A DNA stretch of 64,000 nt from assembly GCF_029227915.1 (NCBI RefSeq), contig NC_079888.1, positions 12,261,001 through 12,325,000 of the forward strand. The letters run 5' to 3'. The notes beneath the pieces were generated by a model. It was not told where the DNA came from and did not search any database. It saw nothing but the letters and a program-made list of their open reading frames with translations. Below are positions 24,224 to 64,000 of this stretch, piece by piece. The stretch is from Hydractinia symbiolongicarpus (Eukaryota; Cnidaria; Hydrozoa; Anthoathecata; Hydractiniidae). Each line of letters begins with the position of its first letter. Position 1 is the stretch's first letter. Made by a program: the position numbers and the translations under genes.

Positions 24224-25125
24224 CGCTTAGGGCCCATTTATGAAAACATCACCTTTAGCATACACGCCTTCTGGGGAACATTTATGAATATCTTACTTTT
24301 AACACACAATCCTAAGGCCCATTCATAATAACGACACACACGCCTAATGGGGACCATTTATGAAAACGTTATTTTTGACACACACACACCTTTTGGGGAC
24401 CATTTATGAAAACGTTTTTTTTGACACACACGCCTTGTGGGGACCATTTATGAGAATGTTATCTTTGATACACACTCCTTATATGACCATTTATGTAAAG
24501 GTCGCATTTGAATCACACACGCCTTCTCGGGACCATTTTAAAAATGTCACATTTCATACATACGCCTTGTAGGGACCATTTTGAAAATGTCACATTTGAT
24601 ACACACGCCTTGTGGGGACCACTTTGAATATGTCACATTTCAAACACACGCCTTCTGGGAACCATCTATTAAATGGTCACCATTTGATACACACGCCTTG
24701 TGGGGACCATTGTGAAAATGTCACATTTGACACACACGCCTTGTGGGGACCATTTTGAATATGTCACGTTTCGCACACACGCCTTGTGGGGATCATTTTG
24801 AAAATGTCACATTTGATACATAAGCCTTGTGGGGATCATTTTGAAAATGTCACATTTGATACACACGCCTTGTGGGGACCATTTTGAATATGTCACATTT
24901 CGAACACACGCCTTCTGGGAACCATCTATTAAATGGTCACCATTGATACACACGCCTTGTGGGGACCATTGTGAAAATGTCACATTTGATACATAAGCCT
25001 TGTGGGGACCATTTTGAATATGTCACATTTCAAACACACGCCTTCTGGGAACCATCTATTAAATGGTCACCATTGATACACACGCCTTGTGGGGACCATT
25101 GTGAAAATGTCACATTTAGTATTCT
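24224..25125 (+). repeat. Tandem array of a 43-45 bp minisatellite (about 21 units)
   Basis: The consensus is acacacgccttgtggggacc followed by attttgaaaatgtcacatttgat. Units begin near 24224, 24262, 24303, 24336, 24380, 24425, 24469, 24513, 24557, 24600, 24643, 24688, 24731, 24774, 24817, 24860, 24903, 24947, 24990, 25033 and 25077. The left units are diverged and the right ones nearly identical. Units of three subtypes (ttgaata, ctattaaatgg, ttgtgaaaatg) recur in the same order three times, forming a higher-order repeat of about 130 bp. Open frames across it are by-products of the periodicity. Confidence 0.9.

Positions 25126-39752: not shown

Positions 39753-39833
<81 letters not shown>
39753..39833. 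repeat. (AT)n microsatellite, about 80 bp
   Basis: An uninterrupted run of alternating A and T. The minus-strand open frame across it (repeated YI codons) is an artefact. Confidence 0.97.
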
Positions 39834-42056: not shown

Positions 42057-43246
42057 CTATGAGGTTTTAAGTATCTTTTCTAGGTTACTCTTCTTGATTC
42101 TGTCACGCTTTGCTCGTTCGTTATTAATCTTTGTTCGAACTTTTTGCCAGGGAATGTCAAGACTATTTTCTTCCAGAAAAAAATTCATCTCTTCACGGGC
42201 TATAATGAAAATGTAATGAGGCTGAAAACGTTAATGGAGTGGGGGTGAGACATGACCATGCCTGATAGAATAAAAACCTTTAGAATCTCTTAAGATAGAA
42301 ATTGCCTGGGACTTTAATGCCATAACCATATTGCCAACTGTGCTAATTAGATGACATTTTGAGTTACAGCTAACAACAAGAGTAACTTACAGGGCATTGG
42401 ATTTTGCGATTCTCTTCTGATGTATTTTTCAAACATTTTCAGGAATTTCACATGGACAGATTCTGGCCAAGCCAAGTACGAGCGCTCTGAAATATATGAA
42501 AATCTAAACTCATGTATTTCCTGACGACAAATGTCTGGATAATGCAAGGCATAATAAGCAATCCATGGAATTTTGCTGAATATGAATATACTGAAAAAAA
42601 TATTATACCCATGTTTGCATTGGTTCTCACCGGTAATACTATAAAATAAAAAAACGTATTAAAAGCTATACCATTGGATTTCCCATAGGACTTCAGTAAA
42701 GTAAAGGTCTGAAATCAATGATAAGGTAAAGATTTACAATGTAAACAATTCATTTCGATGTAGAAATACGCTGTATATATTGCGACTCGTGGATTTCTCC
42801 GTTGAATAAATGCAAGCTAATGTCTCTTCATTGAAGTCGAAAGCCTAACGCAAGGCAGTTCACACTTCAAACCGTATTTCAAAAAACCCGGTTTAACTAA
42901 GCCAAAACATGGCTACAAAATCTAGTCAGAAAATATCGAAAAAAATTTAAAATCAGCCTAGTCGAATTTAAACTTTTGTCACTTTTTGTCAGTAATATTG
43001 CAGCTAGCTAGTCCTGAAGCTGTTCATCCACTGCTTTGCCTACCTCTCCTTAATTTTAAACTACTACTTGGCGAATATAAACCGCCGCAAATAATTTTAT
43101 TTTTCTGTACTGCCACTTACATTCATTTTCTTTGTCACATGACAAATCAACGCTATTTTGGGGATGGTAATCATCATCATCATCATCATCGTAATCGTCG
43201 TCATCTTCGTGGTCATAACGTTTACGTTTACAAACTTTCGACCGAG
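42057..43246 (-). CDS. C-terminal acidic and DNA-binding-like exons with the stop codon
   Basis: Exon 43246-43111 has KVCKRKRYDHEDDDDY with a run of seven aspartates encoded by (GAT)n. Exon 42590-42391 has IPWIAYYALHYPDICRQEIH and VHVKFLKMFEKYIRRESQNP. Exon 42199-42057 has REEMNFFLEENSLDIPWQKV, RTKINNERAKR and ends KILKTS-stop (TAG at 42059-42057). The W...F-x-K-x-I...P...W-x-x-V-R-x-x-I-N order resembles the C-terminal Myb/SANT-like segment of recombinase proteins of this type. The donor of the first exon is set at GTACAG, phase 2, because a GTAAGT 10 nt earlier gives the wrong phase. A reverse AATAAA is at 42014-42009, about 43 nt past the stop. Confidence 0.62.
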
Positions 43247-46200
43247 CTGTAATTATGAATTATTCAAAATATAACTCGTATGCTTATTTGTGGAGAATAT
43301 GTTAAAAAAGCGAAAAATGATATAACCATTATAGCATTTCTAATCTTTTCATTGTATTGCTTAGTACGAATGACAAAAAATACAAACTTACAGCGCATGG
43401 AGTAACTTTTCTCAGATTTTCGTGATAGTACGTTTTTTCCTGATTGTTTTACACCTAACCAAAAGGGAAAGCTATGAATACATGCATATATTTTATACAG
43501 ACTACGGCCGACTAACGTAAAAGAAGTTTGACAGCGGATATATCTGAGCATGCATGTCTAGATTATTTTTATTTTATGTAAAATTCACTTCAAATTTGAA
43601 AGTTTAAACCAACAGAACGCGACGATGATTATTTTTCTAATCAATCTTAACTGGAAAGGATTTATCGTAACTGTTATAATTCTAGTCAATAAAATCCAGT
43701 TTAAATTCAGCCCTCAATTTTCGTAAAATGAATAAATAAAAAAACAACCTTTTTTATTTTGGTTCACTTTATGTCTTTTCACACACTTATCTGCTAACAT
43801 ACATCTGGATTTTTAGCTTTGGTGACTTCCTCATAAAGGATTTGAAATAACGTGTTAACTTTTCTTACCAGCTATATAAACATTCAATCCAATGCAACTT
43901 ACAGGTTTTTTCCGAACTTGGTTTCTTTTCGTTCCCTTTGAATAATCTCTGTGATGCTTCGTCACCTGAGAACGATGTAAACATGCAATTAGGATAAGCA
44001 GTGTGACGTATACTGACCTAAACTATGAAAATCCTGGAACATACATGAAGTTTCTGTACTAACTCTACTTTGTCCTTCAAATTTTCTTTGTGATGCTCCG
44101 TTACCTTAAAAAATGTGAAAAACGAGTGATTGAATTATAATACTAGCTAAATTCTATTTGCTGATGTGGCAAGGATCCTTTTGGGTTCTTAAAATGTCAT
44201 ATCAGAACTTGAAAAAGAGGTTTACTTATATATCTCAAGGTATGCATCATATTTTTTATCGTAACGATATGCTCAAACATTTGCAAACAGTTTTAAGAAC
44301 ATTTCTCAACGTATTACAGGATTAAATGTGACTTGTTCACAAAACGAAAGAGTCGCACTAGCATGAGAGTAATTATGACAAACATACCTGCATCTATCTG
44401 AAGGAGTTGCTTTCCAACTTTCGTAATCTCCATAAGGGCAGGAGGGGCTTGATATGTTCCTTCGTTAATAGCACGAGAATGTCCCATGTGTTTGTAAAAC
44501 CAATCCCGATCTGATTTTGGTATGTGAAGTGCAGCATAAAGGGTACTGACCCTATGCCTATTGGATGTCGCTTTAATATTGTCTGGCTTCTTTAGGTCTA
44601 TTTTTTCAATTATATTGTGAACTGCATGCCAGCCAGACGTATGTCCTTCAGATTTCCTTGTGCTGGCAAAAAGGTAGTTATTATCAGGTAGAATTCCAAC
44701 GTCACTTCTTATATCTGGGTCAGCCAGTTTTTTTAGAGCATCTATTGTATCTGGTGGAATAAGAACCGGGACTATATGATTGTTGCCTTTTCCAGTCATA
44801 TATGAAATCTTGATTGTATCAACTAATAATTGATCAAGAGGATCTAAGTAATCAATGCGTTGTCTATCTATCCAAGCATCATTAATCGCCTGCTGAAAGT
44901 CATCTAACAACATACGTGCTGGCTCTCCTCCTAAAATATTAATCATAGATCATTTGCATATTACAACTAAAATAACAACTGATACTATAGATATAGAAGT
45001 TCCGCCACGTAACTGAATAAATTACCTCTACGTGCATTTAGCAAAGTTAATCTACAGCAAGCACAATCTCGCAACTCGACATACGAAGACACATCAAATA
45101 TTGTGAAAGGATCTTGCAAAAGCTCTTTCATCCTTTGCATTACATGGTTCTTAAGAAGTTGCATGTCTTCCTCCAATGGCAGCTCGGAAGGTTTTCGCAG
45201 TTTTATATTCTTGTTTTTGTTTAGTTGGTAGGTTGCATCTGCAAATACAAAGTCTTCATACATTTCTAACACAGAAATAAATCGGTCAATTTCTTCAGCA
45301 GCGGAATCGTCACTAGAAACTAAGTAATGGCCTTTCAAAACCTTTGCAACGCGTTTTAGTAAGTAGTAAATATTTTGTTTTAAACCAGCCTTAAGTTCGT
45401 TGTCTTCACTGGTTGTGTATACATCAATAACATTTTTTAAATGTTCAAAATTTCTACGGTTGAACATATCACTTGCATCTCCATTTGGCCTTTCAATGTC
45501 ATTTTGCTTAAGAAATAAATTGTACATGTGAGCAATTCTTCGCATGTCTGTCCTGACAGACTTTCTGACTTCAAATGACTTCTCGCATTTTCTTTTATCT
45601 TTATGATAAAACACTGTCCCAACTTTAATGATGGTGTTATCTGTCCTGCATATATCACCAATATTATCCCTTTGGAATTTTGATAAGATATTGTCACGGA
45701 AATCATCAGTTATTCTTAAGTTTTCTGGTAATGATAACAAGTTGATAGGTACGGGAACAGTTTTTTTACACGAATTAGCCTGGCAGTTTTTCATATGCTG
45801 ATACCAAAATCTCCGAGAAATAAATTTCTTACAGTTATTACAGTATACCAAATCATTTTGATCCCTTCCACGTCTCTCTCGCTCAAATTCAGGTTTTTCA
45901 TTTAAAGCTTCTTTCATATTATATTCAAAGATTCCTCGGCGCCTGAAGTCCTCATAAGCTGCAAATTGCTCTTTTTTTTTAAGTTTGAGTACAACCTTCA
46001 CTTCAGGGTGGTGTTTATGCTTTGATCTGATATGCCTTCTTAAATATGACATTTTCTTTTTGCAAAAAATGCAGTATCTGTACGGTTTCTTTCTTCGGCG
46101 CTATAAAAAAAAAAAAGTAACTAATAATACTTTGACATAAGCGTTACTTTGCAAATACTACAATTTTAGGGTTTCGTGAAAAAAACCCGGGTTTTTTAAC

Positions 46201-49200
46201 ACATTTCACGAAACCCACTAAAATAATAATTAGATAGTTTGATATATTTTGAGCAGACGCGATGGACTTCAACCCTTAACAGTAAAATAGAAACTATACT
46301 GGGGGAAAATATGGCTAGGTACACAGAAATTGAAATTTTCAAAAATTTAAAAATTGATTAAAATACGCTTATAAACTTTTGTTGATAGACCAACCCTTCC
46401 AAAACCCTGAAAAATTGTCTACATTTCTTTGAAAAAATGACAATATTATATACTTATTATCAATAAAATGCGATAAATTAATGCAGAACCTTTTTTACTA
46501 TTGTCCGTGCAGATTTATGTTCAATTGACGAAGTAAGTGAAGTACGGCTTACGCTCTAAAGAAAAATAATGTAAAATGTATGTCTATGTGTTAAAACGAC
46601 AAGCAGGATTATGTCTATTTGTGCTACCCATAAAAAAGTTTAGCATGGACTGTAGGATTTTTTTTTTGAGCATTAGCTCGTCAGATAAAGATAAAAAAAC
46701 AACAAGAAAAAAGTTTCAAATTTATAATAATAAACAATAAAGCTAAGAATATAAAATTAAATTGGTAAAGTTTCAAAATATGTTTTTTTTACCAATGCAC
46801 TTTGGTCTGTATCAACAACATGCACATCAGTATCTATCATAAAACCAGAATCGTTTAGCAATGACACCTAAAGATGGCAAAAAAAGTAGTACCATCTTTT
46901 ATATAGTATAAAGTTGGGCACATAAATTAGTCATCCAAATGTTTGGAATTTGGAAATGCTAAGGGGTTCACCAAATTTGAGTATGGATGTGTGCTACTTC
47001 CGAAATATTAACTAAAATTTTAGACAGAGTGAGATTCAAATCCACGCACTTTAACGTTCCCAGCATCAAGTGACAGCTTTTTTAGGGATGACGCTTTAGC
47101 CATCCGTTTATGGAACAAATAATCACATTGGAAGTAGCACACATAGATAGACAACATACTATACAAACTTTAGTTGTTATTACAGTAAATTACCTGGCTG
47201 AGATTGTTAATCTTTCTCTTACTGTTCTAAAAATATTGAAACAAGATCGCGTTAGGAAAAACAACCTGACCGAGACCAAAGTAAAATATGATAAAACACA
47301 AACAAATAAGATAAGAACATGAAACAGAAATGTTTACCTTTAAAACAAAATTTTTTAAGCGCCATTTATTTTTACGTTTTCGGCAAAATTTCTACAAATG
47401 AAAAACATAGCAATCTTAATGATAATAATAAAATATCATACTAAGTGCGAGATCAAAGCTGTCTTTAATTACTGAATTTTTTTAACCAATTAACTAAAGC
47501 AAACTTTTGGCGTAGTCCAGACGGCCACAGGAGTTAGCTAAAATATCAGATACAATATTCATAGATGAAAGGACAATTTTTAAAGGATGTCCACACAAGT
47601 AGTTCATACTCTTTTTAGGATCATTTTGGTTAGATCGAAAATATCAAACACTGATAATTTGATTTTGACGTGTTTTTGTTGTGGCAGTGTTATGCAACAA
47701 GGGGTAATATTGGTTTACAGATGACCTAACTTTAGTAGGATACCTAGTTTAAACTGCACTCGGTGGATAACTTGCATAAGCAGATAATTATTTGGTGTTT
47801 AGATCTTATACGTTACATCTTTCTTTTTTGATTGTTTTGGGAGAAAATATATACGTTTTATGCAAAGGTTGATCTTCCAGAGGCATACACCTAGTTCATT
47901 ATATTTAATGCTACAGCTGATTGCATCATTATGGTAAACATACCGTTTTATTCTGATCAGGTGTTGAAGTGACCTAAAGAGAAGCTGAATTGTAAAAACA
48001 TAAAAAGTTCTATAAGCGGGAATTTGTAAATTGAAAGAATAATAATAATAATGTAACGTGTGAGCATACAGCATATACATGTAAGGTTGAAGTACATAAC
48101 AAACCTGTAAGCAGTCTTTTAGAATAAAATCTTTGTTTTGGTCTTCACCTTTATTCTAAACACATGCATACACACATACGTAACAAAACCATACTTCCCA
48201 TATTCCTTAATATTTTCACATGCATGCATTTACATAAATTAATGCAAACCATAATTTTTTAGAAAAACTTCACTTTTGGCGGTAAATGTAAACATTGTTT
48301 TTTTCAGTGCAATTAGGTCTAGAACCAGATATGAATTCTTTGTAAATGTCAAGTTTAGGGTTGCTTATTCTTAAAGAAACAAAACAACAATTCCAGTTTG
48401 AAGAGAATGACAAAACAAATATGAAATGACCAATTTACAATAAACTTATTGTCATTTCTGAAGTTTAAGTGAAATTTAAAATAATTCCAGAGTCTTACAC
48501 CTTGTTCATTATATTTAATGCTACAGCTGATTGCATCATTATGGTAAACATACCGTTTTATTCTGATCAGGTGTTGAAGTGACCTAAAGAGAAGCTGAAT
48601 TGTAAAAACATGAAAAGTTTCTAAGCGGGAATTTTTAAATTGAAAGAATAATAACAATTTAATGTGTGAGCATACAGCATATACATGTACGGTTGAACTC
48701 ACACTATCTATGAAATGAAGTAAATATCTAACCTGTGCGCAGTCTTTTAGAATAAAATCTTTGTTTTGATCTTCATCTTTATTCTAAACACATGCATACA
48801 CACATACGTAACAAAATCATACTTCACATATTCCTTAATATTTTTACATGCATGCATTTACATAAATTACTGCAAACCATAATTTTTTAGAAAAAATTTA
48901 CATTTCACAGTAAATGTAAATACTAGGTAGTTTGCTTATTCTTAAAGAAACGAAGCACAATTTCAATTTGAATAGAATGACAAAACAAAGATGAATTCAC
49001 CAATGCACAAAACATTCCCAATAAAATTGTTAGTCATTGCCATTCCTGATGTCTTAAATTTTGTTGATGTGTGGCGATTAATTATTATTCTGACTGTGGT
49101 ATTTAGGTAATGTGATTGTATAATCCTGTTTGGATAGTCTTAAAAAATATAAAGCAGCATTAAATCTTGATTTGAGCTTTATTTGATTGTTTTCCGATAG

Positions 49201-52200
49201 TTTTAAATGCTCACAAATTATACTTTATGTTAAAAACTTTTAGTAAAATTTAAAATAAATAGGAGAACTGTGTAATTATGGCATGGAAAAACTACATACC
49301 GTTTTGTGTACATAACAAACCTGAAAACTTTCTATACAGTTCTTAAGGTCGGACCTAAGGGCAGGATCCTCGTCTTCACTCTATAGAAAGTAAATAAAAT
49401 ATTCCTTAACACCTTTGCAGGAGCTAAAGAAACGCATACAAAAATACTGTCTTACTTTTAATTCCAAAAGACTGCAAAACCATTTTCTTGATCTTATTAT
49501 CCTGAATAGTTTCCTGAAGGTTTTTTTTTAACTCATTTTATTTTAACAGACAATGTTCATAGGGTCTTTTTTCTGAATTTTTCCTTTTTGCACATGACCT
49601 AATTTTACTGCAATTATTTTTATTATTATTAGGTAATTAGTCGATAAGGCCCATGGAAAAATCCACTTAGTCGGGATAGCAATGGAAAAGAACAGTCATT
49701 TGAATTTCGATAACGTCCGCCAGGACCCGTTTATAAATGAAAAAAGAATTAGAAACTCATTTACACATTAATTTTATTGTGTAGAGGTGGAAAAGCTGAT
49801 GAAGAAATGAATAGAATCATGCGCTTTTGACCAACTGTTTAGGAGATACAGAAGTTTATAATTTTGCTGACGTCAGCAAACTACCCCTGCAAAGTAGAAA
49901 AAAATTTCATTAGAAATTTGTAAACCCGTTGCCTTCATCGTATAGATTTTGAAACACTATCAAGAAAATATATCCAATCATTCGCTTTTGACAATGGTTA
50001 AGGAGATAAAAAGGTTTAAAAACTTTTGTTGACGTCAACAAAGTTCCACTGCAAAGGACAAAAAATTTTTCTTCAGAAATTTGCAAACCCGCTGCTTGCA
50101 TGTTATAGATCTCGAAACTCTTGACAAACGGTTAAGGAAATCTATGGATTTTAAAATTTTGCTGACGTCAGCAAAGTCCATCTCCCAAAAAAAGTCAAAA
50201 ATTTTTTTTTAAGAAATTTCCATACACGTTACATTCATCGTATAGATCTCGAAACGCTGATCAAGAAAATGTATAGGATCATTAACCTTTGACAAACTGT
50301 TGCGCGGTGAAAAATGACTGACGTCACCACTTCTTTCCAAGATATTTGGCCTTAAAGTTTTAAGTGCACTGTAATTGCTTTATTACCTTAGACACACAGA
50401 CACAGTCTTCGTATTATTATATAGATATTCTTTTTAGATGATGTTTACATGAGAGTTAAATTGGCTTGTAACTCAGATCATTATAAGTATCTAAGCACCA
50501 ACGCTGAAATAACAAGATGCTTTTTTCGAGGTTACTTTCCCGAACTTCATAAATATTCCAAATTCAATTATAAAAAAATTGGTGCTAAAAATGATTCTAA
50601 TTTCTAAGTTCCTTACCAAACAGTAGAACAAATAATTTACATTTATAAATATTTCTATTCTTTCTATGTCTTAATTGCAAGCTGAAATTGCAGCCAAACC
50701 CTTAATATAGACAAGCTTTCTAAGAAAAGGTTCGTTTTCAAAATAATTATTTTCTTCAAATATAAATAAAATGCAGTCAGAATATAATGTTGCTCTAGTT
50801 TCTTCATAATAATTTTTTATTCTATATGAATATTCTGATTTGAAGATCTTAATTTCGATGATTAAAAGGCATATAATAGCTATGGCAGAAATCTTTGAGC
50901 TGTAAGGCTTTTCGTTATTATTAAACTGTACAGATATAAATAACGACAAATTTAACGAGAACAATAAAATTTGTTGTTAATTATATATAACTGAGCTTAC
51001 CATTAGAAATTGTAAATCATCTGTGAAAAAATCCTATACAATAAACAAAGTAAGGACATTAAAATAAGATAAAACTTACACCTAGCATTGTTGTAACAAC
51101 TTTGAAAGGATAACATCACTAACCTCAACAGGCTTATTTGTGTGTGTCTTTTCATCTATAATTAAAAAAAAAGAAAATAACATCTAAACCATTTGTAGCA
51201 CATTGTAATGTAAACACAACTTCCACAATGATAAGGAAAAAATATCAAGTTAAAAACACAAAAAAAATTGAAAATAAAGTTGTGACTTTATTTTTAATTT
51301 TGTTGTGTGTTTTTGGACTTGATTATTTGTCTTTACCATTATAGTGCTATAAATGTATTTTCGTCACCTAGACATTATTACTAAGCAAGGTATTTTTACC
51401 TGGTTCCAGCGTAATCTCCATTATTCCACCTACTACTTTAAAACTCTCAACACAATTAAAATCGATGTTATCTAAATGATAAATTTGAGCAGAAGATGCT
51501 TGATAAAACCACATTAAATATCACTTAAATTACTACAAACCAATCTCATTACTTTTACATACCTTCTTCAGATTTAATGTGAACAGTCGTTGCCACATTA
51601 CTTGCTTTCTAAAGTGTATTTTAGTTTACAGTTTGTGACCCTCTAAGAAACGTTATTATTCCATCCTTTAACTTTTTATGCTTAATCCATTTATAATTCT
51701 TACACAAATTAGTTTTCTGTTTCTGTAAACAAAAAAATGTTAAGACAGCTTTTTTTACAAATACATTTACGCATATTGAAGAAGAACTATTTTGTTTATC
51801 ACTATCATACCGCCGGGCAGTGAGAAGGATTCGATCTGCGGTCCCTAGAAGTGGGAGCTCGCCCGTCATGATGGGAGGTCCGATCGGGGTGAACATTCTC
51901 AGTTGAGAATGATAACACAGATGCGCTATGATAAATATTCACCTCTATACATTTATGCAGTTTAAAATGTCTAAGATTTAAGGCGCCTCATATATCTTAC
52001 TGAAAACTGTAAAGGGTATTAGTCAATTTGCCGTCAACTTTTAACTACTAATAAAAAGTTACTTACCAGGGAATTTCTCACATCAGTAAAGAGATTTAGA
52101 CACTGGAAAAGAAACATTACAAAAGATGGACAGCATAGCTTTTATGTAGTTAGGCATGTTGCAAAAAAAGGAATATTGCTGACCTTACTTACATTGACTT

Positions 52201-55200
52201 TTGTTATATGACAGGAGGTGACAAAAAATTGTCTAGGATTGGGTTAAAATATGTGGCCTAAGAAATTGGGTATTTTAGACATTAATAGTTTTTAATTTAT
52301 CAAACAATAATGATAAAATTTTAAATTACCTCCACAGTACTTGGCCTTTCCTCAAATTTAGGACTCCAAGCTTTCGATATAAGATCCATGACTAATTCAC
52401 ACTCAGGTAAATTGTACAAATTTGACACATGGCTAATATCTGGTCTTTCATCTTCTTTTAGAGCTTGTAAAAGCAAGCCATCATTTAGCAAAGGTAAAAC
52501 ATCTTGCCATGGAGAATTAAGATCAGACATTATTTCATAGCTTGAAATAGCCAAGGAGTAAGTATCCGTTGCTTTTGATGGCTTTTTTGCAGCTCTTGAA
52601 CACAATTCAGGTGCTGTATAGGCAAGGGTCATGCCTTTAAGACTATTCAAAGTGATAGTGCTTGTGATAGTTTGTTGCAAAATAACCATTTCATCAAAGT
52701 CTGTAATTTTTATTTGAATTTGTTTATTGTTATTAGTCACTAGTAGATTGCTAGGTTTAAAATCCCGGTGAACTATGCTATTTTCATGCAAAAAAATCAA
52801 CCCCCTTGTTGCTTGCTGAATGTAATTTAATCTTTCATCAAAGACAAAATTACCATTGCTATTATGTATTGATAACAACTGACGCAAATTGTTCACTTTC
52901 TCACCTTCAAGATATACTTCACAAAATTCAAAAAGGAAAGCAGATGGGTGAACGCTATAGCCAAGAAATTGTACAATATTCTCATGCTTCAATTTACACA
53001 ACTGCTCAGCTATAATGATTAAATTCTTCTTCATTACTTTTTGTTTAAAGCACTTGACAGCAGCACATCTATTTGGCTGTAGCAATTTATATACAACAGC
53101 AGACATTCCTTCATCAATTTTGTGTGACAGGTTTATTGACATATTTAAATCAAGAACTTCATATTTAGAGATATCAGTCAACTTCTAAATTGAAGAAAGA
53201 AAACAAATTATGATGTTCTACTCCCTTTATCCAGAAAGGAGAAATTGTTGTGGCAGCTATTCAGTTATCATTATATAGAATTCTTTGCATGATTAACTGA
53301 ATAGTAAGGGTAAATTCTATTGTTACACTATATTGCACACACTATTGCAGGATTACTTGTAGAAAACAGATTCCAATAGTACAGCTATACATACAAATAG
53401 AATGTTTAAAAATGTTTTTAATTTGCTGAATAAAAATGCTTAATGTGCAGACACAGGAGGAACTCGTATTGAGGTAATTTACATCTATGTTTTTTTCCAA
53501 TGAGAGTTTAAAAAGAATAAAAAAGGCACCCTAATTTTCTCCTTCTCGTAACTGCTTGTATCTAAAGCTTCAATTTTCATGCACACAAAATAACTTATAG
53601 CACAGAGGCTTCTTTCTACTGTGCTTGAATATATACTTTCATTGTAACACATTTGTGTCAACGAACTATTTACATATGATAGTACTAATGTTTATGGTTT
53701 ACCCAAGAAGAAATTTCGAAAACTTTTTGAGTTAGCTGTCACTTGTTTGTCTATTGCAAGCAAGTTGAGAGTGTGATAAAGTTTCAAATAACATACATTT
53801 GATTCTCTTTTTAGCGAATCTGGACGAAATCACCTACTTCAGTTTGCGTAACATGAAATTGGTTAAGAGCTAACTTTTCAAAAATTTCTTAGGAAATGAA
53901 AATTGCAACTTTTGATACCACTGCATTTATCCTAATAATAAATAGCAGCTTCTAAACAAAAGTGTACAAGTCTTTACAAGGACACAGGAAAAACATCAAT
54001 TTTGATTGTTGCTTTTTCTATCCCTGAGTTACGGAGAACAACTTTAAATTAGGAAGTGTAGAATTCAAAAATTAAGCATATATATTTGAGTTAGTAAAAC
54101 AGTAAAATATGATTAGCACAATATTCTTGATGAAAATGATGAGAAGTTTGTTAAAAGTAAGTTGTCAAATTGAGCTTTTAATGAAACTTTTTTTATATAT
54201 ATTGATGAATTTCAGTAAGGCCAAACATTTATTTGTGTTGAAAAGGAAAACAACAATCTTAATCTTAACAATAATAATTCATGTTCATGTCTTCAGCTAA
54301 TTTAAATAACAAAACAGACTGTTAGGGCTATAAATTCTTTAAAATGCAACAGCACTTACTCTAGGAAATTCTGCATCCTTTAAATCAGCAACCGTATATG
54401 GCATTTTCGTCTTTTTATTCTAAAATATAACAAAGCAAGAATTCTTTTATTCTCGTACTTCAATTTTTGAAGATTTTTTGTCAAACAAAAAGAAAAAATT
54501 CGAAACCAAAGTGCTTCTTTGATTATAGAATTATGTGTTTGTGTTTGTACGCTCTGAAAACCAACTGCATATTGTTAACATCTTTTCCCAGGGCCTGTTT
54601 TTTGCAATCTAATAAGGGGCTAGTGATATCAAAAAGTAAAAAAGAAGCTCTAGGAACGAGATTGCATTTTATTGGAGGAACTTTAAATTTCTTAAAACTG
54701 TCTATTGTAGTAGATAAAGTTCTTCCAACAAATTTTGACATGGAGTATAATGAAAATTTTTCACTTTTGCTTCTGCTACACAACCCTTTATACATGGATT
54801 ATTGTATGATTAAAAGTCAAGCCAGATTTTACGTGTTTATTTGCATGTTAACTATAAAGTTTGATTAGCAGCAAATCACAACAACTATAATTTAACACAT
54901 CTAGGTACAAAATTTTTCTAATTGTATGGTAATACACTCTTACTTACATTTAAAACTTGTCTAATTGTAACAAAAATTTCAATTAGAAAAGATATTCAGC
55001 CTCAGTAGAAACATAAAGGTACCTTGTATAGAAAAAAAATATTCTTCTTATATATATGGCATAAAGTTTTATAAGTAATAAACTATACAACTATAATTTT
55101 TTTTAATTTTTTATAAAATGAGTTATATTATGTAACTTATGTAAGCCTAGAAATGCAACATTCTAAACTTTGTTAATAGTGCATGTTTTCTCTACCATTT

Positions 55201-58200
55201 TCAAGGACCTGTCCCTGAGCTTAGAAAACACAAAATTTTTTTAGCTTCTTATTTTAACATGGTTTTCAAACATAAATAATAAAAGGATTTGTGTATTATT
55301 CAAAGCCACTCAGGGTTACGAAGGAACAGTAAAATTATCGACTTTGCTTTAATATTCCGATGAAAAAATTTTATTTCATTTATGCTATTGATTCCTCTAA
55401 CAACAATAGGAAGCAAAGCAGATATAAGCACTAGCAGATCGTTTAAAACTGATAAAACTGACAAAAAAGAAATATTGTACCTGCTGACGCCACCATAAGT
55501 TAGGAGCACAGTAGTCATATCTGAGTTCAGTTCCAGAGGGGATTTCTTCAGTTGAATACAAACAAAGATGTATTCGATCATTGTAATGGATTTTTCTAAC
55601 CTTGCAATTTCCTTTTGGAGAGTCATTAACATACCTGCCAATTCTGTTTTGATAATATGTAGCATCAATACTAATGTATAATCACAGAATAGCATTATTT
55701 TAAACTGGTTAATCGCCAGTTTTTACATTTAAATCAGTTAGAAAACTTTTTAACACCTTTTATATATACCAAAGAAAAGAATTTTACAAAAACAGTTAGT
55801 ATTTAACATTTCCAGCTGAATTGAGCTGCTAAACGTTTGTGTGGCTGCACAAAGAGAAAAAAAATCTGCCATTCACAATTTGATATTAATTTCAAAATTT
55901 TTCCATGGACATCAATTTTAATTATCACAGACTTAAATTTGATCACCCTTTACAATAAACATACAATATGAATGTGGCCTACTTACCAATATTTTTGCAA
56001 ATTATCTTCAAAAAAGTACAGGAAGCAACCCTCCTTTTCATAATTGATTTCTCTAATTTCTCCTTCTTCTTTCGTTATTAAATCACCTGCATACTCGACT
56101 AAAAATGTATTCTTGGGAATTTTTTCTTTAGTAAAAACACCCTTCCCTAAGTAACAATATATTACATATGTGACATGTTTTGCGAATTAGGATACTCATT
56201 AAAATTTACATTAAAAATATGACACAAATATGCCACATGTTATTGAATATTATTACATATTATTGAAGTTCTATGTATGTCATAATAAGTCATCCATTCA
56301 TTTTTCTACGCTACAAAAAACATTTCTGTGTATTCTTATAAAACCTTTAAAATACCAACAGGGTCTTAAACATAAATTATAAAGAAAATTTTATATATAC
56401 AAAGCCCTCGCCATATTTTAATTAAAATTATTAACAAACTTACTCACAAAGTTTTATGTTGGCATAACTTATATACAAAGTTTTCACTATAATTTCCTAA
56501 AACTGCTTAAAAAAATTATTTTAATCTTACGGAAAACCTAACAATTTCTATAAATTATTTTTTTTAAATATTATAAAATATATTTCTATAAATTTTAAAC
56601 ATCAGTATCTACAAAAAAACAAGGTACCCCAAATTGCAAATCTTGATGTATATAGAATTGTTATTGCAAAACTATACTGAAAACGTTGGGACTAACAAAA
56701 GTATTTTGGGACTGATATTATTAGTCTAACGTTTTCAAATCTATACACTGACTTTGTACATGTATACAGTCAAAACTGTCTGCAACAATCGTAATTTTGT
56801 TGTTGTTATTGGTCACACTGTAGAAAACCTATGTGGAAATGTTAAATGTCTTTATAATTATTTATTGTCATAAAAAAAATCAAATTCAGATAATCACCAA
56901 TGATCCTTTGAAATTTAAAAAAAACTCACGTCAGTAGTCTTACTGTCAACATTGCTGTCACGTCGGCAGATATTTTACAAAGCCTAAACATTTGCTGTGT
57001 TTTATTAAAAATAAATTTTACGGCATGAACATTGTCTTATTTCATTGTCAAAAAGAAAATTTAACATTACCATATTTTATTAGAGACTTCTCTGGACTGG
57101 AATAACTTTTTTTTAATTTACACACAACTTACACTTATATTATATTAGAATGTGTTTCTACATTGTTGTTCATTGTGACACTATAAGAAAATGACTGATT
57201 ATCTTAATTTTCACGCATTTTTGTTCACTTTATATTGTCTTAGGTGAAAAAAAATAACAAAAAAGTTTTATTCATGCAAAATAATTTTTTTGTGTGTGTG
57301 AAAGAAAGCATTTTTTTTGATGAAGTTTTATGCATAAGTTTCAATTCAAAAAAGACAAAAAGATAAGTACTTTCCTTATTATACAAGCATATAATGAAGA
57401 AAGAATGTGACCATTCTGTCAAGGTGGTTTGATTATACTTACCAATATATTCATTAATATAGGCCACAAACAACTCTGGTCTGTCTTGTTGGTTTAGTAT
57501 CCAGGTTGTTGCATCTTCAAAGGCTGAATGCGTGTTCCTTCTTGTTGATCTAGTACTTCTTAACATGTTGAACTTTTCTGAAGAAATTTCTTTCTGAAGA
57601 TGAGACAGAACAACTAAAAACGGATTTTATAAGCAAATTATACTTAACTATATGACATATAACTATAGAATTATATATATAGTACAATTCTTGCAAATGA
57701 GCTTTGGGTAGTGTTAGAAGTACCTGTTTTCTGTTGTTTCACAATTGTTTACAACAAACAGAATGATAAATTAATTGTGAAACAATGAAGTTTTTGTTAA
57801 GGCATACCCTTTAATTTTCTAAAGATTGTAAGTTGGGAACTGTTTCAGAGTTAGAGTAAAAAACAACTGAACTTCATTGTGACTTTTGTTTATTACATAC
57901 AAATTTAATAATTCTTGCAAGTAAATTATTGTTTAATACACACACTTTTTGCGATTTTGCAAGGTCCTTTTTCAAGCTCTTGTGAAATCTGTGGAATTTG
58001 TGAAGCTGAAATACTTGAACATTTAAAATTCTATTGAACAAAACGTGTTGTGCTAATAGAATTATTAAACTTAATAATACTGATAATTTTATAGCGAAAT
58101 AGTGTGTTTGACCTACCTAAGGAGCTTTTCCACAAATTTTAAAATTACAAACAGGGGACGTTAAAAAAAGACAAACTTAGGCTTTATATGAAGGCTTTTT

Positions 58201-58338
58201 ACCGTTTTATAACAAAAATGACAATATTAAAACTTCATACCTTTTAACAAATTTATTACGAAAGTCAGGAGTCAGTGAGTCATAGGAGTTTCTAACTGCT
58301 CTTGCTAAATTACTCATTCCAATTTTCATATATTTCTT
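42057..58338 (-). CDS. SET - protein kinase - zinc finger - tyrosine recombinase fusion gene (22 predicted exons)
   Basis: Predicted exons in coding order: 58338-58241, 57988-57942 (uncertain), 57613-57443, 56146-55987, 55670-55481, 54419-54360, 53184-52330, 52102-52067, 51608-51563, 51471-51400, 51155-51124, 49380-49321, 48783-48733, 48155-48105, 46867-46793, 46100-45026, 44930-44388, 44104-44060, 43965-43903, 43246-43111, 42590-42391, 42199-42057. All have AG/GT borders and compatible phases, and the sum is 4209 nt, an exact multiple of three ending in TAG. Domains by residue: SET about 75-222, kinase about 243-527, acidic repeated linkers about 590-643, C2H2 and CCHC fingers about 677-775, tyrosine recombinase about 1020-1200, C-terminal DNA-binding-like region to 1402. 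The 5' end is not fixed. The exon ending at 51124 can be read on to a TAG at 51082, which would instead split this into a SET-kinase gene and a finger-recombinase gene. Function is unknown; a chromatin or nuclear role is inferred from the domains. Confidence 0.62.
43903..44104 (-). CDS. Two homologous small exons after the recombinase
   Basis: Exons 44104-44060 (NGASQRKFEGQSRV, donor GTACAG) and 43965-43903 (DEASQRLFKGNEKKPSSEKT, donor GTAAGT). Both start with a phase-1 Gly/Ser junction and share the x-x-ASQR-x-F-x-G core, so one is probably a duplicate of the other. Low-complexity hydrophilic linker. Confidence 0.6.
44388..44930 (-). CDS. Tyrosine recombinase catalytic domain
   Basis: The exon starts GGEPARMLLDDF, completing the N-A-R-R-G-G-E box begun in the previous exon. 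It then shows MTGKGNNHIVPVLIP (the candidate catalytic lysine turn), ATSNRHRVSTLYAAL (box II arginine, with T where HxxR has H), and YKHMGHSRAINEGTYQAP, with the conserved GH and the nucleophilic tyrosine. These are the marks of the phage-integrase/Crypton fold. All catalytic positions except the first H of HxxR can be placed (about residues 1025, 1074, 1151, 1177, 1186 of the model). Whether it still cuts DNA is unknown. Confidence 0.82.
45026..46100 (-). CDS. Zinc-finger and N-terminal recombinase exon (1075 bp)
   Basis: It opens with a C2H2 finger (YCIFC-KKKMSYLRRHIRSKH, spacing C-x2-C-x12-H-x4-H). It has a second CCHC-type knuckle (YCNNCKKFISRRFWYQHMKNC) about 70 residues later. A long helical region follows, corresponding in position to the core-binding domain of tyrosine recombinases, and ends at CACCRLTLLNARR, which carries the first catalytic arginine. 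The donor GTAATT is phase 1. The exon is far longer than its neighbours, as if retained from an intron-poor element. Confidence 0.78.
46169..46216. repeat. Hairpin with 13-bp arms in the intron before the zinc-finger exon
   Basis: gggtttcgtgaaa (46169-46181) and tttcacgaaaccc (46204-46216) are perfect complements. The spacer itself contains the palindrome aaaacccgggtttt. Possibly a small fold-back element. Confidence 0.7.
46793..46867 (-). CDS. 25-codon phase-0 exon before the zinc-finger exon
   Basis: Acceptor ctttag, donor GTAAAA. It reads VSLLNDSGFMIDTDVHVVDT followed by DQSAL, open in phase 0, and joins RRRKKPYRYC of the next exon. No domain is recognised. Confidence 0.55.
47887..48922. 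repeat. Direct tandem duplication with 610-bp period
   Basis: 47887-48292 and 48497-48922 align nearly throughout (for example the identical stretch from 'ttcattatatttaatgctac' onward at 47894 and 48504). Small insertions near 48710 raise the later offset. Each copy carries one 51-bp coding exon of the fusion gene plus flanking intron, so the duplication lengthened the protein by 17 codons in frame. Confidence 0.9.
48105..49380 (-). CDS. Three homologous acidic micro-exons
   Basis: Exons 49380-49321 (SEDEDPALRSDLKNCIESFQ), 48783-48733 (NKDEDQNKDFILKDCAQ) and 48155-48105 (NKGEDQNKDFILKDCLQ). All are phase 0-0, begin after -tag, end in CAG and are followed by GTT donors. The last two are copies made by a 610-bp tandem duplication that includes their introns. 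The protein result is a short acidic repeat with a single conserved cysteine per unit. Confidence 0.65.
49638..50426 (+). mobile_element. Element with hairpin-family ends and TGACGTCA subrepeats
   Basis: The left end tagtcgataaggcccatggaaaaatccac and right end gacacagtcttcgtattattatatagat match, diverged, the ends of the elements at 25878-25976 and 40402-40551. The interior is built of four diverged repeats of about 130-160 bp, each with 'cttttgac(c)aa...tt(a)aggagat...aaaattttg' followed by the palindrome TGACGTCA at 49868, 50030, 50163 and 50319. No coding frame. It sits in an intron of the fusion gene. Confidence 0.6.
51124..52102 (-). CDS. Linker exons after the kinase (four small exons)
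   Basis: Exons 52102-52067 (CLNLFTDVRNSL), 51608-51563 (KASNVATTVHIKSEE), 51471-51400 (NIDFNCVESFKVVGGIMEI plus TLEP) and 51155-51124 (EKTHTNKPVE). Phases run 0-0, 0-1, 1-1, 1-0, exactly what the flanking exons need. No domain is recognised; they may be a disordered or regulatory linker. If the donor GTTAGT at 51123 is not used, translation continues to a TAG at 51082. Confidence 0.55.
51780..51912 (-). repeat. Dispersed repeat related to 15.1-15.5 kb
   Basis: ccgtcatgatgggaggtccgatcggggtgaac followed by attctcagttgagaatg matches cgtcatgatgaatggttcgatcgtagtgaac at 15235-15268. The preceding cagtgagaaggattcgatc part matches the inverse of 15137-15215. It lies in an intron between linker exons, and the open frame over it is not a gene. 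Confidence 0.55.
52330..53184 (-). CDS. Protein kinase domain in a single 855-bp exon (DFD variant)
   Basis: A whole kinase fold in 285 codons, phase 0 at both ends (acceptor caatttag, donor GTAATT). Visible motifs are a glycine-loop-like DEGMSAVVYK, AVKC with the ATP-contacting lysine, helix-C AEQL, HENIVQFLGY, catalytic loop VHRDFKPSNLLV (D, K and N all kept), DFDEM in place of DFG, TLAYTAPEL, DTYSLAISSYEI and ERPS. The HEN-V-FLG and ERPS features recall the TKL/RIPK/receptor-kinase group. Loss of the DFG glycine with all catalytic residues kept leaves activity open; it could be active or act as a binding module. Genomic position and phase place it between the SET and recombinase parts of one transcript. 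Confidence 0.85.
54360..54419 (-). CDS. 20-codon phase-0 linker exon between SET and kinase
   Basis: Bounded by attttag and GTAAGT, it reads NKKTKMPYTVADLKDAEFPR. It is phase 0 on both sides and joins WWRQQ of the SET exon to KLTDISKYEV of the kinase exon. Its form (NK-x... DLK-D) is like the repeated exons at 49.3-48.1 kb, which suggests one ancestral micro-exon spread within the gene. Confidence 0.65.
54586..54665. mobile_element. Short inverted-repeat element, 'TCGTTCCCAGG' family (copy 3)
   Basis: Ends tcttttcccagggcctg and aagctctaggaacgagattg pair imperfectly. Located in the intron between the SET and 20-codon linker exons. Confidence 0.45.
55481..56146 (-). CDS. KMT5A-like SET domain (two exons, 56146-55987 and 55670-55481)
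   Basis: A SET methyltransferase domain. The first exon has GKGVFTKEKIPKNTFLVEY and AGDLITKEEGEIRE, the G-x-G-V-F...V-E-Y-x-G-D opening of SETD8/KMT5A-type domains. The second gives CIDAT, RIGRYVNDSPKGNCKV, then LCLYSTEEI and GTELRYDY with the active-site tyrosine, ending NLWWRQQ. The pseudoknot NHS is NDS here. S-adenosylmethionine-dependent lysine methylation is the family activity. No post-SET cysteines follow; the next exon is a short phase-0 linker into the kinase. Splice sites are GTAAGT and GTACAA in consistent phase. Confidence 0.88.
56678..56738. repeat. Imperfect hairpin in the intron before the SET exons' end
   Basis: tgaaaacgttgggactaa (from 56678) and ttagtctaacgttttca (to 56737) pair with one mismatch and one bulge, with a loop of about 25 nt. 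Non-coding. Confidence 0.55.
57443..58338 (-). CDS. N-terminal exons of the SET/kinase/recombinase gene
   Basis: Exon 58338-58241 reads KKYMKIGMSNLARAVRNSYD and SLTPDFRNKFVK, entered after cttctttag-type sequence and ended by GTATGA in phase 2. A following short exon (about 57988-57942) would give FHKSLKKDLAKSQK; its donor in a GTGTGTGT run is unsure. Exon 57613-57443 (VLSHLQKEISSEKF...ILNQQDRPELFVAYI) ends in GTAAGT, phase 1, and leads straight into the SET domain. The helical segment before the SET core is like that of KMT5A-like proteins. No initiating ATG is assigned; the start may lie above 58338. Confidence 0.55.
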
Positions 58339-60433: not shown

Positions 60434-63278
60434 GTTTCAAAACACCAACATCGATAATTTTGTATCCTCTTGTGCCATTGGCCCAGCCTTGTCTTTTTTA
60501 TTCTAAGACAAACAGCAATAGCATGTGTTACAGTATAACTTAGATTGAGAATGTTCTTATTTGAATATAAAATCTTTGCCTTACTCATATTACAAAGTTT
60601 TTTGGACCAGGCTGACTTGTCTGCTCGTGTGCAGTGTAGACATGAGGGGTCTCAGAAATAAATTCATCACCAGAATAGACACAGGAGACTATAAAGTCTG
60701 TGTTTTCTTCCTAAAAGTTTATATTTTGGCAACCATTTTTAATTATTAATTCTGGAAACAAGACTTCCTTTTCTTCCTATATCTTCTTTTTCTCACTGTT
60801 GTTTTCATTTCATATATATGTATCCTGAAAGAACATACATTAATTTGTATAATGCAACTATTTTTCCTTAAAATATAGACAAAACTAGCAAATAGTACCA
60901 AACAAACACAGCAAAAGCAAAAATTCTTCCAGCTAGCTAGCTAAGAGTTTTTTTATTTACAACTGGCTTTAAAACGTGACCTTTTGAGTATACCGCGGGA
61001 AACAAAGCCGATATTTTCATTTCATTTACTTATTAGCTGTGGAACACATAGTTTCGGCTAAAAGCTCGAACAAAATCCTGATCTTCTGTGATTTAAGTGA
61101 AGATATGCGTATCTCGGACGCGGTTAGTAAAATTGACGTTTAATCAGCGATTTTAAAAGTTGCATAGCTCATGTTTGGAAAAGACTGGAATAGTCTCTTT
61201 TTGTCTATGTTCTCTATGCTTCTATATGCTAATAAAGATACAATCACATCCATGTAAATCTTAGTAAAATCATTTTTATTATCTTGGCTATAACTGGCGT
61301 ATATATATAGCAGGCCAGCTATTTTGTGCTTTTCTCCAAAGTTTTTCATTTAGTTTGGTAGCTATAGCTAAGTGCATTTTGTGCTATCCATCGTGTTATT
61401 ACTTCTTGTGTTATCTTTTACCAACTTGAAGCTAGCCACAAAAGTAAGAAATGCCTTCTTACTTTTGTAGCTAGCTTCAGTTTTTGTGGCTAGCTTCAGC
61501 TCAGGTCAGCTATAAATCTTGTAATAATACCCTGCAAATTTTAGCTGAAATACTCTGCTTAACAATGTATCTTTTCATACATCATAGTTTGTAGTGTTAG
61601 CTTCACAGCAACAAAATAAAATATTTTATTCCAGTGGTATAAAGTTTCAATAGAGTTTCAATGTTTACGTTTTGACGGGATAATAAAATACAGACTAGCT
61701 ATATAGAAGAAGTAAATTAACAGTCGGGGAGAACTGATAATTAGCTTGTAACAAGATAGTCGATGCTTATAAGGCTATAATACAGTGGAGATCTTTTTTG
61801 CCTAAATTTCCACAATTTTCTTCAATATGTCGATATTGTAGGGTATGCCTTCCCATATTTTTCACATCTGACTACGTCTTTTCAATGTTTTTCCATAAAA
61901 TCAGTATTTTTAAGGTTAATTAGCCGGTATTAGTTTGAAAATGAATATATATATATATATATATATATCTTTCAAACGCAGTCGTTTCTTGTTCTTCTTT
62001 TCTTTTTTATTGGAGCATACCATGCTATGAAACTAGGTAGATGACTATTGGAAGATCGATATCGATGAAAAGTGTAAAAATTGAAGAAATAAGATCTCTA
62101 CCGTATAATTAGCCACATAAGCAGCTAATTTTACTGTGTATCGTATAATTTCCTGTATTGGCTGACTGTCCTTTAAAGGCTAATTATCAGTTCTTCCAGA
62201 CTGTTTAAGTTATGATAAAAATTGTTAGGCTAGTAGCATTTTTTCACTTATGTATGTTGTAAATTAATCTGCATGCAAAAACTAGATTTTAATTTCAAGA
62301 CCAAAAAATGCCTCCACTCAAAATTAAAGTTTGTAATAGGCTGGTTGGTCTATGGATTATTGCATGTTTATTTTGCCTGTCGATTTGCACAAAAGATCTT
62401 GGGAAATTGCTCGGATTTGTAGAAATTTTCTGCGGACCATGTCTGAAAGGGCGTTCTATTGGACTAGCCTTCAACCCATGAAACAAGGGTTGGCTCAGAT
62501 ATTTTTAGACTTGCCATCCCTTTTTCGGGCGTCCTCAGTACAAAATGACAATTCGGCTATACCAGTTTGAATAAAATACGTATTTATTGAGCATGCTGCT
62601 CAGTGACTAAACAGGAGGGGTTCTACAATTTTGCCAGCCTGTTTAATTTTTCCTCTGTAAAACAAGCACCAAAAGCTCATTTTTTATTAGTTATGCTATA
62701 AATAAAGTATTTTCAATGTAAGCTCAAATAGAACCTGTTTTTTGTGATACACACTTTTTTATGTAAGAAACACGCTTACAAGAAACCAGAGGCTCAAAAT
62801 TTGAAAATATTAAGAAACTTAGTTTGGCTCAGTACCTCAAACTCCTCCAGACCATAGACTATTACAGAAAATATTACAGTGAGCTCTTAGCACTTTTTTA
62901 ATTGGTCAAATAGCAGACAAAACTAGAACTATATATTAAGAGAGAAACAACCCTTCATTTCCAAAACCGATATGAATTATCAGAAAGCAATACTCATACT
63001 ACTAACACAGCACTAGTATATATCACTTAACAAACAAAATCATTTGAACTGTAATGAAATAGGTCAAAAATGTTTCCATCGTTGGTAAGCTCATCTACTT
63101 CCATGTTGTCAAAATTAAGAACTGTTAAGAAACTTTTAGCCTCAAAATCAGAAAAAAATAAAAAACTTGAGCCTCAGTAGCCAAAACTGGTTTCTTATAA
63201 AAAACAGCGTGTACAGTATATATATTCAATCTTGTCTGTGAGAGGTAATTAATTTGCATTGTATACGACAGACTGTAG
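60434..63278. other. Region without recognised genes
   Basis: It contains an (AT)n run at about 61944-61969 and the hairpin at 61428-61478. A minus-strand stretch at 60497-60445 looks like another NKK-type micro-exon (acceptor ttag, NKKDKAGPMAQEDTKLSML), but its donor is weak. Open frames at 62295-62570 have no recognised motif. Confidence 0.35.
61428..61478. repeat. Near-perfect 23-bp hairpin with 5-nt loop
   Basis: Left arm gaagctagccacaaaagtaag(aa) at 61428-61450, loop atgcc, right arm at 61456-61478, with a single mismatch. A third partial copy of the right end (gtggctagcttcag) follows at 61487-61500. Could be a fold-back fragment or, less likely, a small-RNA precursor. Confidence 0.7.
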
Positions 63279-64000
63279 ATTGTAGCAGGACAATTTAGTG
63301 CAAAAGTTCAGCAGTTAGCCCACAATGGTCAATGTGATAGTGACAATGTTGAAAGTACTTGGACTACTTTGAAGAATTGTCTTCTAGAAGCTTCTGATGA
63401 TACCTGTGGGTGGTCGAAAGGACCAGCTAGACATAGACAGACCCGATGGTGGAATAATGATGTTGACCAGTGTATAAAGGAAAAGAGGAAACTTTGGAAA
63501 GAGTGGAAGTTAGGTGGTAGTAAAAATATTTACTTAGAAGCTAAGCGTCGCGCTCGTACAGCAGTGTATAAGGCAAAATCAGAAGCAGAGAGAAACAGAT
63601 TTGCAGATGTTTTAAGAAGGGAAGACCAGCGCAATGAGGTATTCAAGATAGCAAAGCAAATGAAAAAGACTAGTCAAGATGTTGTAGGTGAGAAGTGTAT
63701 ACGTAATGATGAAGGTGTTTTGGCTAGCACAGAGGAGGAGAAAAGGGTAGCTAGGAAGAATCATTATCAGAGGTTGCTTAACACTGAGTTTGATTGGGAC
63801 GAGGATAATTTGTCTGATGATGATGTTGTAGAAGGGCCAGCTATGCAGATCAAGACAGAATGGGTAGTGGAGGCTATTAGGAAATTGAAGATTGGCAAGG
63901 CTGCAGGAGTATCAGGTATTGTTGCAGAGATGGTAAAAGCATCTGGATATATTGAAGTTGAGCTTATTACAAGTCTTGCTAACCAGATTATAAAGGATGG
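63279..64000 (+). mobile_element. 5'-truncated non-LTR (LINE-type) retrotransposon ORF2, running off the right edge
   Basis: The frame is open from 63279 to the end of the window (240 codons), with no stop inside. It covers the endonuclease-RT linker (NDVDQCIKEKRKLWKEWK, EAKRRARTAVYKAKSEAERN) and the first RT motif (IRKLKIGKAAGVSGIVAEMV followed by KASG). K-x-G-K-A-x-G-x-S-G-I-x-x-E is the RT domain 0/1 signature of jockey/CR1/RTE-like LINEs. A TAG precedes the open frame, and no endonuclease catalytic part is seen upstream, so this copy is 5' truncated. Its intact frame suggests a fairly young insertion. Clade is not assigned. Confidence 0.85.

Follow-up and report, generated by a model that had tools for sequence, protein, structure and literature searches.

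Does a single gene join a SET methyltransferase domain, a protein kinase, zinc fingers and a tyrosine recombinase in the hydrozoan Hydractinia symbiolongicarpus, as an earlier note on a 64,000-nucleotide stretch of its DNA had inferred, and what kind of DNA would carry such a gene? The stretch (referred to as the window) corresponds to C14:12261001-12325000 of the 480.9-Mb HSymV2.0 assembly, and we re-read the exon borders of the gene on its minus strand. The feature is probably a transposon-encoded SET-kinase-recombinase gene: judged from sequence, we find it fairly probable that a copy of a DNA transposon family lies in the window and that its single multi-exon gene encodes the SET domain, the kinase, a linker, zinc-finger-like modules, the recombinase and a tail. 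We compared the window gene with a paralog copy, C5, for exons, identity and substitution rates, and with F1, a related family with SET and recombinase and without the kinase (reference locus L043). Candidates were scored genome-wide (the best 150 of 232 for SET, 136 of 137 for the kinase and the best 80 of 304 for the recombinase), all counts being lower bounds, and these searches gave at least 112 SET matches (108 clusters), at least 67 kinase matches (58 clusters) and at least 84 recombinase matches (68 clusters).

The order of the modules recurs across the genome. When clusters within 20 kb of each other were paired and scored by strand and order, SET lay upstream of the recombinase on the same strand in 27 pairs, compared to none in the reversed same-strand order and one on opposite strands, with 0.15 same-strand-downstream pairs expected by chance. 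Identity and score grouped the 27 pairs into the window family (4), F1 (11), a family F2 (4) and eight singles, one of which, on C11, is related to F1 at the DNA level (83-86% in the 3' part), giving 10 or 11 families. Similarly, the kinase was upstream of the recombinase in 8 pairs, with no other arrangement, and SET was upstream in 8 of the 10 SET-kinase pairs.

The intervals between the modules can be bridged in frame. C5 displays the same order: between its kinase exon and its recombinase exon come eight phase-0 exons, each a multiple of three in length and with AG/GT borders. F1 runs from SET exons through nine phase-0 exons to a single-exon recombinase and tail exons; the F1 borders are approximate, two of its tail ends have no GT and the reading of its tail breaks frame. 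In the window, the stretch from kinase to recombinase contains 1191 nucleotides (nt) of stop-free phase-0 exons, a figure that counts any such exon including the alternative-tail stretch described below (our own nine linker exons make up 450 nt), versus a maximum of 1158 nt in 300 Markov shuffles. In C5 the content is 630 nt versus a maximum of 447 nt, with 0 of 300 shuffles reaching 630, and the reverse-strand controls of this test gave 276, 381 and 378 nt. Short AT-rich exons do thread easily, our re-reading did not arrive at the exact totals given earlier and the F1 chain lies within chance, all of which would suit a chance threading of exons across unrelated neighbouring genes. However, order and strand recur in about 11 families and the window and C5 pass the shuffle test, so that this explanation, largely disfavoured by the same-strand pair count, strikes us as extremely improbable. 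Because the order recurs and paralogs have in-frame phase-0 linkers, one SET-kinase-zinc finger-recombinase gene appears well supported; in this form the claim of the earlier note is supported, whereas its exact model was not reproduced.

A different possibility is that the same mobile element contains two genes, one for SET and kinase with its end near 50.7 kb and another for the recombinase with its own start before 46.1 kb. In its favour, an in-phase alternative tail (within 51722-50673) can be read after the kinase, comprising exons within 51722-51001 and then an 84-residue terminal open reading frame (ORF) from 50925, and conservation of the linker exons is weak, with one match to C5. Conversely, the open phase-0 chain runs from kinase to recombinase in C5 and from SET to recombinase in F1, and the alternative tail has no significant C5 match (best E 0.026), whereas linker exon 46867-46793 has a counterpart among those of C5 (E 0.001, the only such match among the linker exons compared) and by eye resembles F1 exon L043:6576-6674. 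Moreover, longer genes with an N-terminal SET and shared C-terminal ends have been reported as genes in the available text of PMC10368294. We consider two genes unlikely, and on these comparisons the linker exons of the single gene look to be fast-evolving. Within 48783-47944 of the window, a tandem duplication of about 610-630 bp doubles a pair of linker exons.

Our own exon chain for the single gene begins with an ATG at 57566 and comprises 23 exons (4044 nt), with a single frame open from 57566 to 43121 on the minus strand and with an AG acceptor and a GT donor at all inner borders. The 43121/42486 junction gives an in-frame TAG that two extra small exons (37 and 8 nt) would bypass, bringing the total to 4089 nt. 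We did not recover the 22 exons of exactly 4209 nt with agreeing phases proposed earlier, nor the start at 58338 proposed with them: the exon 58338-58241 is out of phase with the acceptor at 57613, an added exon (57988-57901) restores phase, and for both exons C5 offers no convincing counterpart (best E 0.25 and 0.094, respectively). By contrast, the ATG at 57566 and its surrounding context are kept in C5, making it the likely start. The first-exon part of the initial model (58338 to about 57588) was rejected as not conserved in C5. A codon-usage score, which is weak for short exons and is not the basis of the case, was 0.02, 0.07 and 0.12 bits per codon for kinase, SET and recombinase, compared to a 99th percentile of 0.009 for intron pieces of 84 codons. 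Six of the nine linker exons scored above the 95th percentile of intron pieces nearer their length (10 or 20 codons) and three (47391, 47226 and 46555) below it, a percentile that both rejected first exons also fail to exceed.

That the SET and kinase domains are recognisable, as had been claimed, is borne out by Pfam, which matched SET (E 4.8e-17) and Pkinase (1.5e-29) within one joined N-terminal exon chain. Among PDB structures the SET domain is nearest to KMT5A/SETD8 (1.9e-20 versus 7.7e-14 for the best other, KMT2A); it has NDS where KMT5A has NHS, and F1 has NHS. The kinase keeps the AVK and HRD motifs and has DFD in place of DFG, with RIPK2 as its best PDB match and RAF and IRAK kinases also near; the C5 kinase carries HRN in place of HRD. 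Comparison of window and C5 gave nonsynonymous (dN) and synonymous (dS) rates of 0.052 and 0.384 for SET, 0.055 and 0.241 for the kinase, and 0.054 and 0.267 over all 1410 nt, values by which both domains appear to be under purifying selection. Similarity to KMT5A, and this alone, suggests histone H4 lysine 20 (H4K20) as the SET substrate. Other SET matches were noted as well. A second KMT5A-like SET gene, also with NDS, lies at 18281-17800 (minus strand) of the window, and its first half has similarly scoring matches at C9:29098772, C14:10764468 and C4:4018564. Six further matches, all of 58.6 bits and with open frames of 173-221 residues (C2:13181258, C11:17864678, C13:19350270, C14:11854056, C53:3520 and C4:27109146), perhaps represent another multicopy SET family.

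The recombinase module lies at 46100-44388 (minus strand). Tyrosine recombinases carry the catalytic residues R, HxxR, H/W and Y in that order. In an alignment of eight sequences including that of the window (a short ninth, L057, was excluded), the motifs RRGGE, TxxR, H.GH and Y and two zinc-finger-like Cys/His sets are invariant in 8/8, and L057 has the same four catalytic motifs. Profile comparison (hhalign) with XerD/FimB/FimE gave a probability of 69.6 and an E-value of 4.2e-5, with the motifs aligned in order. Pfam PF00589 (Phage_integrase) matched one of the eight members (9.1e-5), which was not the window's own protein, and a PHROG integrase matched one of eight (E 0.0018); single-sequence structure prediction of one exon was uninformative (predicted local distance difference test score 36). 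Searches of viral contigs and of bacterial and archaeal genomes confirmed no relatives. The earlier assignment by catalytic motifs has the invariant motifs in its favour and, against it, the sparse Pfam matches and the altered HxxR motif taken up below. As to the term Crypton-like, a recombinase does seem to be encoded, yet the Crypton domain DUF3504 was absent from the Pfam matches of the eight members at E up to 1. The recombinase parts of window and C5 share 42% and 57% amino acid identity, while SET and kinase share about 88%; since the recombinase is so much more diverged, elements may have swapped modules. The C5 recombinase also carries a frameshift. Two kinase-recombinase pairs without a detected SET lie at C9:4929366-4941811 and C7:12800260-12812736 (minus strand); upstream of the C9 copy, no SET was found in a 5-kb stretch reaching about 3.4 kb beyond the kinase matches.

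F1 behaves as mobile DNA. It is a 17.5-kb element present in about 11 near-identical copies dispersed over several chromosomes, with ends at (TA)n tracts. A query from its 3' end gave 11 matches at 100% rounded identity including itself, the other ten ending in or at the edge of (TA)n, and the 3' flanks beyond the tract all differ (5/5 examined). The corresponding 5' query gave 10 matches including itself, nine of them complete and one, on C9, without the first 142 bases, and (TA)n is found upstream in both 5' flanks read. The C6 copy spans 17,486 bp from end to end, the two ends being 18/23 inverted, and contains 63 GTGGACA/TGTCCAC motifs, by our own reading mostly in an intron minisatellite, with none in the preceding 5.4 kb. 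A large minisatellite built on the TGTCCACTTT motif near the element ends occupies L043:1-2900, upstream of the F1 SET exons, and is probably intronic. The F1 end pattern has 0 matches within the window. The window copy ends 3' at an (AT)n tract (39755-39833), and a sister at C14:12428410-12428462 matches it at 99.95% over the last 1971 bases and differs beyond the tract; in C5, a 566-bp (TA)n lies about 1.7-1.8 kb past the last exon. Common ends in unrelated flanks, as expected of a mobile DNA element, are thus seen for dispersed F1 copies and, in the window family, for the 3' end only, at two loci.

These ends bear on whether we are dealing instead with a domesticated family of host genes that ordinary segmental duplication has spread. 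Such spread would agree with the identity of window and C14 sister for at least 3 kb past the window, with the purifying selection on SET and kinase and with the small contigs C17 (35 kb) and C18 (22 kb). On the other hand, the F1 copies on several chromosomes end sharply and differ in their flanks, the 3' flank of the window copy changes at (AT)n, and the C5 copy looks decayed (HRN, frameshift), which makes a host family decidedly improbable. Of the two descriptions offered earlier, we prefer composite over domesticated, because the related family is multicopy with (TA)n ends, matched in the window copy at its 3' end. At 63277-64000 the window also contains an abundant repeat (at least 32 copies among the matches listed at 98%, beyond the five window-family copies).

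Several observations weigh against a transposon with a single gene of this kind. For the gene, the first exon shows weak selection (dN 0.086, dS 0.132, window versus C5); 41 of the 68 recombinase clusters have no same-strand SET upstream within 20 kb, and the recombinase counts rest on the best 80 of the 304 candidates. In F1, the linker exon end at L043:4904 has no GT donor and the phase-0 content of 579 nt was reached by 17 of 300 shuffles, not clearly beyond chance. For the recombinase, Thr replaces the His of HxxR in 8/8 and no recombinase was among the PDB chains matched by sequence, so that its identity as a tyrosine recombinase is weak by sequence. For mobility, a run of 500 N takes the place of the recombinase part in the C14 sister, and no (TA)n of at least 16 bases occurs in the 4-kb 3' stretch of the C12 copy, which ends about 550 nt past the stop and is uninformative or weakly adverse. 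The 5' border of the window family was not found, all five copies matching to 64000 and two for 3 kb further; with C17 and C18 being small contigs and C14a breaking off at 5000 N, its near-identical copies may in part be assembly duplicates. Finally, (TA)n together with inverted ends would also suit a DDE transposase. Mobility might then depend on a different enzyme, such as a Ginger2-like DDE transposase that acts at (TA)n, with the recombinase in the fusion having another job or being cargo. Imperfect inverted ends and (TA)n targets are consistent with this, as is the description, in the available text of PMC10871703, of sesarmid-crab nimaviruses that use (AT/TA)n and encode a Ginger2-like DDE transposase but lack a tyrosine recombinase. 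However, three ORFs tested in the F1 5' region gave no transposase Pfam match and the recombinase motifs are invariant in 8/8, and we deem movement by another enzyme quite unlikely. It is compatible with the two-gene arrangement, so that the probabilities overlap, and those of the readings weighed here need not sum to one.

The features of the gene, read as a single transposon-encoded unit, are collected in Table 1. Elsewhere in the window, 24336-25117 is a tandem repeat with 43-bp and 260-bp periods.

Table 1. Features of the probable SET-kinase-recombinase gene and its surroundings, in window coordinates.
Feature	Position	Strand	Evidence
Likely first coding exon, ATG at 57566 (MLRSTRSTRR...)	57443..57566	-	Start and context kept in C5, 83% amino acid identity
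SET domain exon 1	55987..56146	-	Pfam SET 4.8e-17; 88.5% amino acid identity to C5
SET domain exon 2 (YCIDAT; NDS replacing NHS; YDY)	55481..55670	-	KMT5A best PDB matches, 1.9e-20; recovered in own-genome SET search
SET-kinase linker exon	54360..54419	-	17/17 compared residues same in C5; AG/GT, phase 0
Kinase exon, tyrosine kinase-like (TKL-like), HRD kept, DFD replacing DFG	52330..53184	-	Pkinase 1.5e-29; RIPK/RAF/IRAK best in PDB
Exon closing kinase domain	52067..52102	-	11/12 residues kept in C5
Alternative tail, in phase with the SET-kinase part (exons 51722-51704, 51471-51400, 51155-51124, 51033-51001, terminal ORF from 50925)	50673..51722	-	
Nine candidate short phase-0 linker exons (49380-49321, 48783-48733, 48583-48554, 48155-48105, 47973-47944, 47391-47338, 47226-47194, 46867-46793, 46555-46490)	46490..49380	-	Read from sequence, AG/GT chain
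Zinc-finger-like Cys/His sets and N-terminal recombinase part	45026..46100	-	Own-genome search, at least 84 matches; C/H positions invariant 8/8
Recombinase catalytic part (RRGGE at exon junction, GKG, TxxR, HMGH, Y)	44388..44930	-	Invariant columns; hhalign to XerD/FimB/FimE
C-terminal acidic/basic exons (44104-44045, 43965-43903, 43454-43392, 43246-43121)	43121..44104	-	AG/GT, phase 1
Terminal exons 42486-42391 and 42199-42057 (...KINNERAKRD..., stop TAG)	42057..42486	-	Last exon matches C5 at 6e-10; F1 ending similar
(AT)n tract, inferred 3' border of mobile element	39755..39833	.	Sister copy at C14:12428410-12428462 diverges beyond tract

Among known systems, SETMAR/Metnase is a host gene with a mariner DDE transposase. 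It yields a chimeric SET-transposase protein (PMC4593633, available text) and is like the present element in being a SET chimera, the latter differing as a multicopy element with a recombinase. Cryptons are DNA transposons that encode a tyrosine recombinase and are reported from cnidarians among others, those of animals being described as without a C-terminal domain or terminal repeats; in the available text of PMC3212892, 'kinase' has 0 occurrences and no SET domain is mentioned. Like them, the present family seems to code for a recombinase; by contrast, the eight members here have no DUF3504 match and the F1 ends are largely inverted, thus departing from animal Cryptons. Endogenous nimavirus recombinases, in the available parts of PMC10871703, typically have a C2H2 zinc-binding domain, with five of seven key residues located, and target microsatellites; the telomere-associated ones target (TAACC/GGTTA)n, and 'SET domain' occurs 0 times in its main text. 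The likeness in zinc binding and microsatellite targeting is one of description, these recombinases being viral and having a different target. Of the kinds of recombinase compared, Cryptons and these nimavirus enzymes came nearest.

Also close to the window gene are the 'novel predicted KMT5A genes' of the same species. The available text of PMC10368294 reports as many as 65 KMT5A-like genes in H. symbiolongicarpus, most with an N-terminal SET like the window gene, of which 22 are activated in the early embryo, and states that longer Hydractinia and S. purpuratus genes share SET and C-terminal ends; it treats them as predicted H4K20 methyltransferases, and 'recombinase' is absent (0 occurrences) from its main text. 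We infer that these genes may be the same elements as those described here. Nematostella has a single KMT5A gene (PMC10368294), so that the expansion is patchy, and in KMT5A of other species the SET domain is C-terminal (PMC10368294). The window gene shares the KMT5A-type SET with KMT5A/SETD8 but differs in its N-terminal position, its NDS for NHS and its fused kinase and recombinase, and hence does not have the C-terminal SET without other catalytic domain. Searches of an open-licence library gave no printed account of such fused elements; the kind of recombinase is already known, and the fused effectors are the new part.

In the mechanism that we propose, the gene product would begin with a KMT5A-like SET domain, continue through a TKL-type kinase and a fast-evolving linker to two zinc-finger-like modules and a tyrosine recombinase, and finish with a C-terminal 'KINNER' tail. 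The core site of a tyrosine recombinase has inverted arms around a spacer, and the F1 ends would resemble such a site by setting inverted arms around a TA spacer. The recombinase could bind the terminal inverted arms and excise a circle, which would then recombine into (TA)n via the TA spacer. Tethered by the DNA-binding part (recombinase and zinc fingers) to the element or to target chromatin, SET and kinase might modify chromatin or its regulators at the donor, the target or the promoter, with the consequence that the element would be expressed or integrated in early embryos. Evenly balanced, in our judgement, is the wider proposal of an undescribed animal transposon superfamily that carries a KMT5A-like SET, and sometimes a TKL kinase, in cis with a (TA)n-targeting zinc-finger tyrosine recombinase; transposon expression would then largely account for the published zygotic wave of 'H4K20 methyltransferases' in Hydractinia and for the expansion seen in sea urchins.

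If this holds, a transposon recombinase would arrive at its target equipped with a histone-methyltransferase-like domain and a kinase of its own, a case of selfish DNA shaping chromatin directly, and the choice of TA repeats by such elements would become testable. What has been reported in hydrozoans and sea urchins as an expansion of developmental H4K20 methyltransferases would be recast as mobile DNA, and selfish DNA may account for part of the genes that were published as new histone methyltransferases.

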